DNA of 64,000 nt from Thermoplasmata archaeon. GTDB lineage: Archaea > Thermoplasmatota > Thermoplasmata > Lutacidiplasmatales > UBA184. Made by a program: the position numbers and the translations under genes. Within the stretch, counting starts at the first letter, position 1, and the number at the start of each line of letters is the position of its first letter. Positions 9,141 to 61,983 of the stretch are shown piece by piece. The notes below the pieces were generated by a model. That model saw only the letters and a list, made by a program, of their open reading frames with translations, did not search any database and was not told the DNA's origin. The DNA is taken from assembly GCA_022750195.1 (NCBI GenBank), contig JAKIWE010000004.1:62001-126000 (forward strand), given 5' to 3'.

Positions 9141-9241
9141 CGGGCTTGCCGGGAGTTCCGCCGCCGGCGCCGCCGACGGATTCGAACCCGGGTCTTTGGC
9201 TTCGAAGGCCAAAAGGATAGTCCAGACTACCCCACAAGCCC
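9141..9241 (-). tRNA. trnR(tcg): tRNA-Arg(UCG) with a 26-nt insertion (probable intron) in the 3' side of the T-arm
   Basis: Reverse complement GGGCTTG-TG-GGGTAGTCTGGACTATCCT-T-TTGGC-CTTCGAA-GCCAA-AGAC-CCGGG-TTCGAA[TCCGTCGGCGGCGCCGGCGGCGGAAC]TCCCGG-CAAGCCC-G. Removing the bracket gives 7/7 acceptor pairs, 5/5 anticodon pairs and 5/5 T-stem pairs. CCA not encoded. Confidence 0.85.
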
Positions 9242-9263: not shown

Positions 9264-9272
9264 GCTATTTCC
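9264..9272 (-). promoter_or_regulatory. TATA-like box upstream of tRNA-Arg
   Basis: Minus-strand GGAAATAGC about 25 nt upstream of the tRNA 5' end. Confidence 0.4.
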
Positions 9273-9276
9273 CCGT

Positions 9277-12200
9277 TTAGGCCGCGGGGTCAGGGCCGCT
9301 CGTGCCCGGCGAAGTTGCCGGGGGGTAGCCGTCGAGCGTCGTCTGCGACGCCGTGCCCGGGAACAGCGTCGCGAGGGAGGCCTCGAGGATCCCGATCCGT
9401 TGCCGAAGGTACGGCGGCACGCCTTCCATCGCCGCGAGCCGCTGGGAGAGCGCGATGTACTTGCGGACGTTCGCCTCGTGGACCGTGGGGAGCAGTTCCC
9501 CTTCGCACAGCCCCCCACCGGCTCCGCGGGCCGTGCACCGTCCGGCCAGCGGCGGACGACGGTAGGAGGTGTTGCACCGCTTGCACCGGAACTTCTGCGT
9601 GGCGTAGCTCTTGAGGTTCCCCATGACGTCGGGGAGGAAATGGCTGTTCAGGACCAGCCGAACGGCGTCCGCGACGTCCACGGCACGGATCTGGGCGGCG
9701 AGCGTCATCGACTGCTCGACGATCCGGTTCATCGAGCCCGCTTCCCGGTACGCCGAGAGGACCGGGCCGCCGGCGATGTCGGCCGTGTCGTGCGTAAAGC
9801 CGAGGTGCCGCATCGGTTCGGCGTCGTCCAGGCGCCGGCCGAGCGTAGCGATCAGCGGCTCGACCTCTTTCGGTGGCCTACCCTCGGCGGCGGCGCGGTA
9901 GAACGCGAGCGGGTAGCGAACGGCGACGTCGACATTGTGCGCCTCCTTGTCGACCTCGGCCAGGTCGAGGCGCGTCGTCAGGACCAGCGGCTTGTCCATG
10001 AGCCCGCCCCGGCTCGAGGGCAGGTACGCCCGGGAGAAGTTGATGAGCGCGTCCAACAGCAGGGTGACCGAGTCTTCGTCGCCGTCGCAGTTCCGGCGTT
10101 TCGCCGCGTGGAACGCGGGATGGGCGAAGCACGCTTCGGCCTCCGTGAACCCGATGATCCGTCCCGTCACGCCCCCGGAGGTGTGGGGGGCGAGGGCGAC
10201 GACGAGCGCCCCGGTGAGGTCGTCGAGTCGGCTAGCCCGGTAGAACGGCTCGAGACGGTAGATCCGCACGAGCTCGTCGTCGACGAATTTGCCGAGGCGG
10301 AGTAGGTACTCCCCGCAGGCCCGCGCCACGATGAGGTCCTGCGGGTACAGTTCGACCAGCTGCTCGACCTCCTCGAGCGGGGCCCCGAGCCAGTCGGTCG
10401 TGTACCCGAGCCCATGGGCGCGTTCGACGGAAAGACCGATCTCGCGTGGGCGAAAATGGGTCAGTGGCAGGTCGGTCAGGTCGAACCGCGCCGTGCCGTC
10501 CTGGTAGACGGAGACCCCGTGGACCGCGCGCAGCGCCCCTTTGTCGAGGAGCTCGGGGACCTTGCCGGGGGAGGTGAGGCCCTTGACGCCCTTGACCTCC
10601 GGAGCCCGGCGCAGATGCAACCGTTCGACGGCCTGCGCCCAGAGCGGGGCGACCGGTAGCGCCTCGGTCACGACCTTGCCCGTGGGCTCGGTGTGGCCCC
10701 CGCAGGCGCATTTCGGCCAGACCGTCTGGCTGTGGCAGGCTGGGCACTCCCGGACTCCGAGCTGGACCGAGACGCCCCCCCCGATCGACCGCCGGGCTGC
10801 CTCGGGGACGGAGCGGTGCGCGCCGCCGGCCTCTCCGAGCGGGAACAGGACGTGCACGTTCGGGCTCATCGTCCGCTGCCGAGCTTTCTCCGGCCGGCCC
10901 ACGCGGGCACCTACCCGCGACGGGGCGCGCGCACGGATCTCCACGCCGGCGAGCTCGCTCGCCAAGGCGAGGACATCACCGCCCTCCGCAGGCACCGCGA
11001 TCCGTCGCCGGATTCGGTCGTCGTCCGGCTCGAGCCCGAGTCCGAGGAGCAGCGCCCTCGACGCTTCGGGCTCACCGCGTAGACAGCCGTCCGGCATCCG
11101 TTGGTGCAGCCACCCGAGCCGCACGAGGCTCTCGCGGTCGACCACGTTCGGGCGGAGCAGGAGGCGACGTTCGAGGAGCCGACCGTTCTTCTCGACGGCG
11201 CGCGAGATCTCCCGGACCTCCTCGGCGCTCAGGTCGTGCCAGAACAGAAGGTGGGCGGGATGCAACGGCACCTTCCAGCGGTGCGCGATCGTCACCGCCT
11301 CCTCGACCGACGGGGTGCGTTCGATCTCCTCCGGAGGAGCTCCGGCGGCCCGCAGCTCCTCGTCGTGCCAGTCGACCGAGTACGCTCCCGGCACGAGCGG
11401 ACGGTTGTTCTCGAGAAACTCGCCGAACGGAACCAGGAGGCTGCCCAGGTCGACGATCCGCACCAGGCGTGGGAGGATCGCCTCCGCGCTCGCCGCATCG
11501 TTGACGGCCAGCAGAGTACCGTCATCGAGCTCGACGATCGGTCCCTCGATCGTGTCGCAGACGCCCATGGCGGTCGCCTTGCCGGGGTACTCGACCTTGA
11601 CCTGAGTGCCGATCGCCACGAACTTACGGAGCACGACCATCGTCGCCGGGTTCACCGCGTACGCCGCCAGACCGGCCGTGCGGGCCCGGCCGTACGTCAA
11701 GCGGAATCCCCCCGCTCGGTTCGGATGGGCGAGGACGGGCCGGCCGCCCACCGCCTCGGCGAGGTACTTCGGGTCGTGCGGGGACTCCTCGGCCGTCGTC
11801 GACCGGCCGATCTCGTCGAGGAACTCCCAACCGGAGAGGCCGAGCTTTTCCACGACCTTGCGGAGCTTCGCCGCCTTCTGGCAGAGGCCTTCGGCGATGA
11901 CGAGGCAGGCTCCCCCTCGGACGCCGTTGGTACCGACGCGCGGGAGGTCACGGAACGCAGAGACCTCCTCGTCGCCTTCCGTCGATTCGCCGGAGATCGC
12001 CACCGGAACGTTCCGGGCGATCGTCGCGATCTCGGCGGCGGACGGAACGTACTGGAGGTGCTGCAGGTGCTTGTACAACGGGATCTCCTCCTGGTACCGC
12101 TCGACCTCCGCGGAGGTAGCGTGGAACGCGCCGAGGCCGACGTCGCGTCGGACGATGTCGGCGAGGAGGACCGACAGTGCCTGCGCCGTTCCGCCGGCCG

Positions 12201-12627
12201 CACGGATCGGTCCGGCGTAGTACAACTCTAGGTACGGCTCCCCGCCACCGTTGGCCCGGAGGTGAACCTCGGCCAGTCCCTCGAGCGGGGCGACGAGGAT
12301 CCCTTCGGTCAGGATCGCAAGGCCGACGCGGAGGGCCGCGTCGAGCCGCTCCTCCAGCGTCGCCCCGCGGGCCGGGTCCTGGACGATCCGTCGGGCCATC
12401 GTGACCGCGACCTCCTCACGCGGGAGGCGTGCAGCCAGCTCGCGGATCTCGAGCGCCACGCCCTGGAGCGGCAGGTGGCCGAGGAGCTTCTCGACGCGCA
12501 TCGCCATGTCCTCGGCGAGCGGGATCTCCGGGGTGAGCGTCGGGTCGAAGCCGGCACGGCGCGCCGCGGTGGCGACGGCGTAGGCGTCGTGAACGGCGGT
12601 GTCGATGGCGCGGGAGTACGCGTCCAA
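9277..12627 (-). CDS. polC: DNA polymerase D large subunit DP2; no intein apparent
   Basis: LELYYAGPIRAAGGTAQALSVLLADIVRR, CPACHSQTVWPKCACGG, RRNCDGDEDSVTLLLDALINFSRAYLPSSRGGLMDKPLVLTTRLD. Confidence 0.96.
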   Translation of the reverse strand: MDAYSRAIDTAVHDAYAVATAARRAGFDPTLTPEIPLAEDMAMRVEKLLGHLPLQGVALEIRELAARLPREEVAVTMARRIVQDPARGATLEERLDAALRVGLAILTEGILVAPLEGLAEVHLRANGGGEPYLELYYAGPIRAAGGTAQALSVLLADIVRRDVGLGAFHATSAEVERYQEEIPLYKHLQHLQYVPSAAEIATIARNVPVAISGESTEGDEEVSAFRDLPRVGTNGVRGGACLVIAEGLCQKAAKLRKVVEKLGLSGWEFLDEIGRSTTAEESPHDPKYLAEAVGGRPVLAHPNRAGGFRLTYGRARTAGLAAYAVNPATMVVLRKFVAIGTQVKVEYPGKATAMGVCDTIEGPIVELDDGTLLAVNDAASAEAILPRLVRIVDLGSLLVPFGEFLENNRPLVPGAYSVDWHDEELRAAGAPPEEIERTPSVEEAVTIAHRWKVPLHPAHLLFWHDLSAEEVREISRAVEKNGRLLERRLLLRPNVVDRESLVRLGWLHQRMPDGCLRGEPEASRALLLGLGLEPDDDRIRRRIAVPAEGGDVLALASELAGVEIRARAPSRVGARVGRPEKARQRTMSPNVHVLFPLGEAGGAHRSVPEAARRSIGGGVSVQLGVRECPACHSQTVWPKCACGGHTEPTGKVVTEALPVAPLWAQAVERLHLRRAPEVKGVKGLTSPGKVPELLDKGALRAVHGVSVYQDGTARFDLTDLPLTHFRPREIGLSVERAHGLGYTTDWLGAPLEEVEQLVELYPQDLIVARACGEYLLRLGKFVDDELVRIYRLEPFYRASRLDDLTGALVVALAPHTSGGVTGRIIGFTEAEACFAHPAFHAAKRRNCDGDEDSVTLLLDALINFSRAYLPSSRGGLMDKPLVLTTRLDLAEVDKEAHNVDVAVRYPLAFYRAAAEGRPPKEVEPLIATLGRRLDDAEPMRHLGFTHDTADIAGGPVLSAYREAGSMNRIVEQSMTLAAQIRAVDVADAVRLVLNSHFLPDVMGNLKSYATQKFRCKRCNTSYRRPPLAGRCTARGAGGGLCEGELLPTVHEANVRKYIALSQRLAAMEGVPPYLRQRIGILEASLATLFPGTASQTTLDGYPPATSPGTSGPDPAA

Positions 12628-33580: not shown

Positions 33581-34546
33581 CTACGTCGGCGTCGCCGCGG
33601 GGACGAACGGCTCGCCCGTGAGCCGTTGGTAGACCGTCGTGTACAGCCGGCTCACCTCGTCGACCAGGAGCGGCGGCAACGGTGGGATCGGCGGCTCGTC
33701 GGCGTTCGCCTCGCGGGCCTTCATCAGCTGGTCGAAGTAGCCGGTGCTCCGGTAGTGCTGCCGGACGAACTCCTTGGAGAACTCCACCTGGCGTCCCCGG
33801 GAGAACGCGTCCTTGTCCCAGAACCGGTCCTCGTCGGCGGTGCCGAAGGTGTCAACGACCATCGTCGCCCCGGCCGCGTCGACCGCGAACTCCTTCTTGC
33901 CGTCGACATGCAGGAGGCCGCGGGGGGCTATCTCCCGCTCCATGGCGCCGTCGATCTTCAGGATCTCCTCCCGGATGGCGTCCATCTGCCGCCGGTCGAG
34001 CGCCGCGAGGTCGTACGCCTCCTCCCAGCTCAGGAGCCGGTCGACCGGCTCGAGCTTGGTGGTCACTTCGAAGTGGGCGGTCGGGAGCTTCTCGCCGTAG
34101 GCGACCGGCTTCCCTTGCGGGTAGCCGAGGGTCTCGGCCGTCACCTTGCCGGCCTTCACCCGGTCCCAGAGGGAGCCGGCGACGTAGTACCGGACGATGA
34201 ACTCGAGCGGGATCAGGTAGTTCTTCGGGTGGGGGCCGAGCGTCTTCGGCTTCGGCACGACCTGCACCCGCCGCACGCGCATCGCGGTCGGACCGGAGCG
34301 TCCGAGGAAGTGGTGCGGGATGCCGAGCCGACCGCAGAGCGCGAACCAGTGGCTGGCGGTCGCCGCGAGCGTCTCGCCCTTGTGGGGGATCGGGTTCGGG
34401 ATGTGCTTGTCGAACACCGAGATGTCGTCGGTGAACCGGAACTCGAGCTCGGTCGGGGAGATCTCGTAGATCTCCTTCACCTTGCCCCGGCGCAGGTACT
34501 TCGGCGCCGTCGCCTCGTGGGAGCCGGACCGTGCGGTCGTCGACAT
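33581..34546 (-). CDS. purC: SAICAR synthase
   Basis: [72 protein letters not shown]. Confidence 0.94.
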
Positions 34547-34584
34547 GCTCGCGTTCCACGCGCGAGGGGCTACATAGCGAGCAC

Positions 34585-61543: not shown

Positions 61544-61649
61544 CCGACGCCTTCCCGCCGCCGGAAAGGTCCCACTCGTCTTGAGCTGGTCTCCCGTGCG
61601 TGCGCGAGGGCGAGCCCTTTTGAGCGCCCGCGCTGTGGTTCGTCGCTAG

Positions 61650-61955
61650 GCTAGACCGGGGGGTTGGGCGTCCCCTTTTACACCGAAACCGTCCTTAGCG
61701 GGGGTGACAGGCAGGAGCGACGTTCGGGCGGACCTTTCGTCCCAAGGATCTTCGTCGAAGCTCTGTTCCATCGGGCCGCGGGCCCCGCGACGAGCGCCCG
61801 GAGGGGCGCCCTAGCGGGTATCCATCACGGGCACCGGGTCAGGTCCTGACGGGAGCAGCCTTACCGTGACCCGTCGACGCTGGTGGGGCTACGGGGCGGA
61901 GAAGCGGCCGGGAGTCACGACCGGTTCCCCCGGGCGGCCATTCCGCTGGCCTAGC
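61650..61955 (+). ncRNA. ffs: SRP 7S RNA
   Basis: 5' GCTAGACCGGGGGGTTGGGCGTCCCC resembles archaeal 7S RNA; S-domain helix 8 GGGTCAGGTCC-TGAC-GGGAGCAGCC; 3' GGCCTAGC pairs with 5' GCTAGACC (one A.C mismatch); about 306 nt. Confidence 0.88.
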
Positions 61956-61983
61956 ACCCCGCTCGTCGGATCGACGGGGTGCT
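61953..61983 (+). terminator. Perfect 9-bp stem-loop at the SRP RNA 3' end (terminator/processing candidate)
   Basis: AGCACCCCG-N13-CGGGGTGCT. Confidence 0.45.

Follow-up and report, generated by a model that had tools for sequence, protein, structure and literature searches.

Probable splitting of a Thermoplasmata tRNA-Arg(UCG) gene by a bulge-helix-bulge intron at position 59/60

An interrupted tRNA-Arg(UCG) gene

Can a tRNA gene whose T-arm is broken by an insert still give rise to a normal tRNA? The question is raised by a locus in the window, the whole 64,000-nucleotide stretch of DNA analysed here, whose CGA-reading tRNA-Arg(UCG) belongs to a soil-type archaeon. Judged from sequence, the locus is very probably the organism's apparently sole tRNA-Arg(UCG) gene, split by a bulge-helix-bulge (BHB) intron between positions 59 and 60 (Table 1). 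The earlier note had described a tRNA-Arg(UCG) with a 26-nt T-arm insert, and its coordinates, the minus strand and the full stem pairing of the excised product are all borne out: with 9180–9155 removed, the acceptor (7/7), anticodon (5/5) and T-stem (5/5) pairs are complete and the anticodon is TCG. It was also right that the boundaries can slide by up to 3 nt on sequence alone; they are placed here by homologues and motif geometry. The anticodon loop, CTTCGAA, is unbroken and the insert lies at 59/60, so this is not a canonical 37/38 intron. Most of 38 syntenic tRNA-Arg(UCG) genes have a similar TATA-like box, at −29 to −32, and PolD alone contains seven CGA codons.

Table 1. Features of the tRNA-Arg(UCG) locus, in window coordinates
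Feature	Position	Strand	Remarks
tRNA-Arg(UCG) gene, unspliced	9141..9241	minus	discriminator base G at 9141
5' exon, positions 1–59, 61 nt	9181..9241	minus	near-identical in about 37 syntenic genes
Probable 26-nt intron TCCGTCGGCGGCGCCGGCGGCGGAAC, between 59 and 60	9155..9180	minus	absent at the same locus in L113 and L116; BHB statistics in text
3' exon: T60, T-stem 61–65, acceptor 66–72, G73	9141..9154	minus	
U54U55C56G57, exon side of BHB central helix	9183..9186	minus	
CGGA, intron side of BHB central helix	9157..9160	minus	4/4 pairs in 36/36 syntenic intron-bearing Arg genes tested
Intron hairpin, inner helix 8 bp	9161..9179	minus	fold −13.4 kcal/mol; compensatory changes at 7/7 tested pairs
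TATA-like box GAAATAGC, 30 nt upstream of tRNA-Arg(UCG)	9264..9271	minus	putative promoter
PolD large subunit gene, directly upstream of tRNA-Arg(UCG), synteny anchor	9277..12627	minus	NCBIfam PRK04023 / polC

A PolD search groups the host genome with Thermoplasmata near Candidatus Lutacidiplasma silvani, UBA184 and UBA61. In about 37 Lutacidiplasmatales-type genomes tRNA-Arg(UCG) lies just downstream of polD and carries an insert of 23–38 nt at the identical site; in this polD-linked set the mean identity is 94% for the exons and 47% for the introns. Two further genomes, L113 and L116, have the polD-linked gene without the insert. In a quick PolD tree L116 is the first branch, on a long branch that makes its placement unsure, and L113 falls inside the intron carriers; a minimum of two events, of gain or of loss, is therefore needed to account for the Arg intron.

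Standard finders handle the locus poorly: ARAGORN calls the spliced 75-mer as tRNA-Arg(tcg) and leaves the unspliced gene uncalled, and the Rfam tRNA model gives it just 22.7 bits in a whole-genome search. Such missed or low-scoring calls would suit a pseudogene, that is, a decayed tRNA with a random insert; this reading is very improbable, since, over about 37 genomes, the insert diverges but the exons are kept, with compensatory stem changes, and since a genome-wide search found no other tRNA-Arg(UCG) in a host assembly 95.65% complete with 5.57% contamination, figures that make an overlooked second copy possible. The intact second gene by which the earlier note would have recognized a pseudogene was thus looked for and not found.

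An interrupted tRNA gene is also what a covariance model points to. The model, in which the BHB structure was encoded, was trained on six intron-bearing tRNAs of the host genome (Asn, Ala, Gly, Gln, Glu and Asp), and the held-out tRNA-Arg(UCG) matched it with 77.6 bits (E=7.5e-17); this value, together with the recurrence of the insert at the same site in the syntenic genomes, places it beyond chance. Intact tRNAs mostly score about 37 to 55 bits, with a maximum of about 63, and because they match too, match length is required to separate intron-bearing from intact genes. A loose pattern (GTTCRA-N20-50-GGAAC) was uninformative as an intron finder, with 246 matches. Of 162 spliced forms, ARAGORN called 153, tRNA-Arg(UCG) among them, as against 56 when unspliced.

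Elsewhere in the window, an ARAGORN call of tRNA-Thr(CGU) at 34482–34573 (plus strand) has no Rfam tRNA support and is probably false; a clear tRNA-Thr(CGU) lies elsewhere in the host genome. An archaeal SRP RNA (125 bits) is found at 61644–61956 (plus strand).

The splice motif and its covariation

The earlier note had proposed a relaxed BHB with a central helix formed by G53–C56 and GAAC. The BHB itself, in the T-arm, stands; the helix was one register off, and in the proper register the motif is not relaxed, being the canonical arrangement of a 3-nt bulge, a 4-bp helix and a 3-nt bulge, with bulges A58 A59|N and A C|U60. Of 40 genes read as Arg(TCG), 39 show complete (4/4) pairing of U54–G57 with CGGA, as against 22 for the GUUC/GAAC register, which is rejected. 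In the 33 distinct Arg sequences, 94.5% of the cells of the proposed BHB are paired, compared with 83.0% after column shuffling and 31–54% when it is slid by one to three columns, and both sides of a pair have changed in 55 cells, compared with 14.8 in the shuffles. Compensatory changes occur at two T-stem pairs and all seven tested inner pairs; the central helix is 100% paired, and its variation is confined to one side. Introns were cut to equal length, but just for building the model and counting pairs.

The same geometry is seen more widely: among 146 T-intron tRNAs, positions 54–57 pair 4/4 with intron positions −6 to −3 in 104, and the other tested offsets give 0 or 1. The base facing position 57 follows that position, with G57 facing C in 91 of 92 cases and A57 facing U in 14, G in 40 and C in none (Fisher value 1e-39, which ignores relatedness). 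These 146-intron statistics are biased, because part of the set came from searches with a model in which the central helix is encoded; the polD-linked Arg set was found by synteny and is free of this bias.

The insert folds as a stable hairpin and might persist after maturation as an additional T-arm hairpin. On sequence evidence we consider such retention very unlikely: the exon/intron pairing has exact BHB geometry, insert length varies from 13 to 46 nt between tRNAs, and a disrupted T-loop is expected to impair the contact between D-loop and T-loop. The sequence shows that the precursor can fold with the T-stem (49–53/61–65) as outer helix, U54U55C56G57 paired with CGGA near the 3' end of the intron, and the cut sites held in the two 3-nt bulges beneath the intron hairpin. 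In the favoured reading, excision, a two-repeat α′2-type EndA would cut at each bulge, and ligation of the exons, presumably by the RNA ligase RtcB, would yield a normal tRNA of 75 nt that reads CGA. Folded alone, the precursor has a minimum-energy structure other than the cloverleaf. Half of the splice motif comes from the conserved T-loop sequence UUCRAA, and this would account for the build-up of introns at 59/60 in many isotypes of the phylum.

A single two-repeat splicing endonuclease

The architecture of EndA, singled out by the earlier note as worth establishing, is at odds with its view that a broad-specificity endonuclease is needed: the host genome holds a single EndA gene of about 353 aa with two repeats (2x PF01974, 2x PF02778), which aligns over 28–335 with A. 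fulgidus EndA. The catalytic Tyr/His/Lys motifs are present, the catalytic repeat lying on the C-terminal side, and by its predicted two-repeat single protein the enzyme is of the α′2 type. Neither a three-unit protein with the ARMAN loop (ε2) nor separate α and β genes ((αβ)2) were found, and the ARMAN-2 enzyme 4fz2 gives only piecemeal matches. The two domains share a single frame in all but one of 13 genomes; in the exception, one domain was found, in a truncated frame. The crenarchaea-specific EndA loop is an insertion of 15–18 residues with a conserved Lys before a strand of the N-terminal domain; against A. fulgidus EndA only, the host protein shows no insertion at the position assumed for this loop. 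The first repeat carries a conserved LPRGG...KTP segment, which is absent from A. fulgidus EndA in the alignment.

Enzymes of the α′2 type have been rated narrow (PMC6379350) and strict for the canonical BHB (PMC12397907), and homodimers have been credited with BHL-like motifs as well (PMC8707768). The Arg intron is compatible with either the narrow or the wider view, because it is canonical; the discriminating cases for α′2 specificity are the A57–G introns.

Position 59/60 introns in the phylum

The earlier note took a T-arm intron in such a genome to be uncommon, an expectation that the wider survey overturns: 59/60 introns are present in 14 of about 44 host tRNAs (Arg-UCG, Arg-UCU, Asn, Asp, Ala-GGC, Gln-CUG, Glu-CUC, Gly-UCC, His, Leu-UAG, Lys-UUU, Ser-GCU, Ser-CGA and Ser-GGA), the total being a hand count in which two Pro tRNAs were not found, and direct reading of the sequences showed inserts at this site in 13 Thermoplasmatota families. 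Leu(UAG) and Lys(UUU) have, besides the 59/60 intron, D-loop inserts that are probably introns, Arg(GCG) and initiator Met have D-loop inserts only, and by eye Trp, Tyr, one Met and Leu-UAA have apparent 37/38 introns. The anticodon loop of tRNA-Gly(UCC) has C at position 33, where U is usual.

In the Lutacidiplasmatales-type family, the best covariance-model match reaches E ≤4e-15 in 46 of 46 searched genomes, a value reached, where checked, by insert-bearing genes only. Within the order and class, ten further families (f2–f7, f9, f19, f20 and f25) showed inserts on direct reading, as did two outside the class (f29 and f47); in f15, a family with many complete genomes, model matches are no stronger than those of intact genes. 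One genome (G010) has T-arm introns of just 13–14 nt, several in tRNAs with an anticodon-loop insert too. In f5 and f7, tRNA-Trp carries anticodon-loop inserts of about 97–99 nt with box C/D-like motifs, which resemble the known guide-RNA intron of tRNA-Trp.

As to their origin, the T-arm introns of one genome could be recent copies of a single mobile intron, which is compatible with splicing and would account for the one position and the similar 3' ends in 14 tRNAs. We consider this very unlikely, since the common 3' ends are those required by BHB pairing and since, once the last six bases are removed from the 14 introns, the best score (11.0) is matched in 99 of 200 shuffles, with a slightly raised mean. 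As to their benefit, introns may be kept for disrupting the attachment sites of integrating elements, the idea of Randau and Soll, which is likewise compatible with splicing. The 3' halves of tRNAs are often used by integrases, and the intronless tRNA-Ile, a single case, has two downstream copies of its 3' fragment; the 14 intron-bearing tRNAs nevertheless leave about 30 others open, and this benefit seems unlikely. The Ile gene is tRNA-Ile(GAU) (C11:447714–447788); its 3' part, together with the downstream flank, recurs twice at a distance of 21–28 kb (469441–469514 and 475775–475848), like traces of integrating elements.

In earlier accounts, non-canonical tRNA introns are almost confined to Crenarchaeota (PMC3218864) and are linked with endonucleases of broad specificity (PMC6379350, PMC12397907); T-loop introns have been reported in other archaea (PMC3218864). 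Thermoproteales and other Crenarchaeota resemble the host in that each genome holds several BHB introns at sites other than 37/38, T-loop sites included (PMC3218864, PMC6379350), whereas, compared with Crenarchaeota with the (αβ)2 enzyme, Thermoplasmatota have one dominant fixed site, 59/60, and a two-repeat EndA. In Thermofilum pendens and Cyanidioschyzon, permuted tRNAs also have their T-loop joint at 59/60 (PMC3218864); unlike them, the host has its exons in normal order and a short intron. The Asgard Atabeyarchaeia and Freyarchaeia likewise have many non-canonical introns outside Crenarchaeota (PMC11291895), with 92–95% of tRNAs intron-bearing as against about one third with 59/60 introns in the host, a comparison by fraction only. 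Canonical 37/38 archaeal introns share the BHB geometry of the host 59/60 introns, which differ in their site and in a central helix built on T-loop bases 54–57.

No description of the Thermoplasmatota 59/60 class was found in the open-access literature searched, which is no proof of novelty, and the main text of the Lutacidiplasmatales paper makes no mention of introns (PMC9287336). Some 59/60 introns may already be annotated in databases, because the training data of the non-canonical intron model in tRNAscan-SE 2.0 were in part euryarchaeal (PMC8450103). With plain tRNA models, tRNA counts in T-intron genomes are probably underestimated, because the Rfam tRNA model missed or under-scored many such genes here.

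The large 59/60 set with a single two-repeat EndA decouples intron position from enzyme class, and in Thermoplasmatota it offers a natural experiment on intron clustering at one site. It is possible, and we put it forward tentatively, that the phylum as a whole has a position-specific class of T-loop introns that takes half of its splice motif from the universal T-loop sequence, occupying about one third of the tRNAs in the Lutacidiplasmatales-type family and including A57–G variants that an α′2 EndA, a type rated narrow, would have to cut. If this were true, the EndA of this group would have a widened specificity of its own, perhaps by way of the LPRGG...KTP segment.
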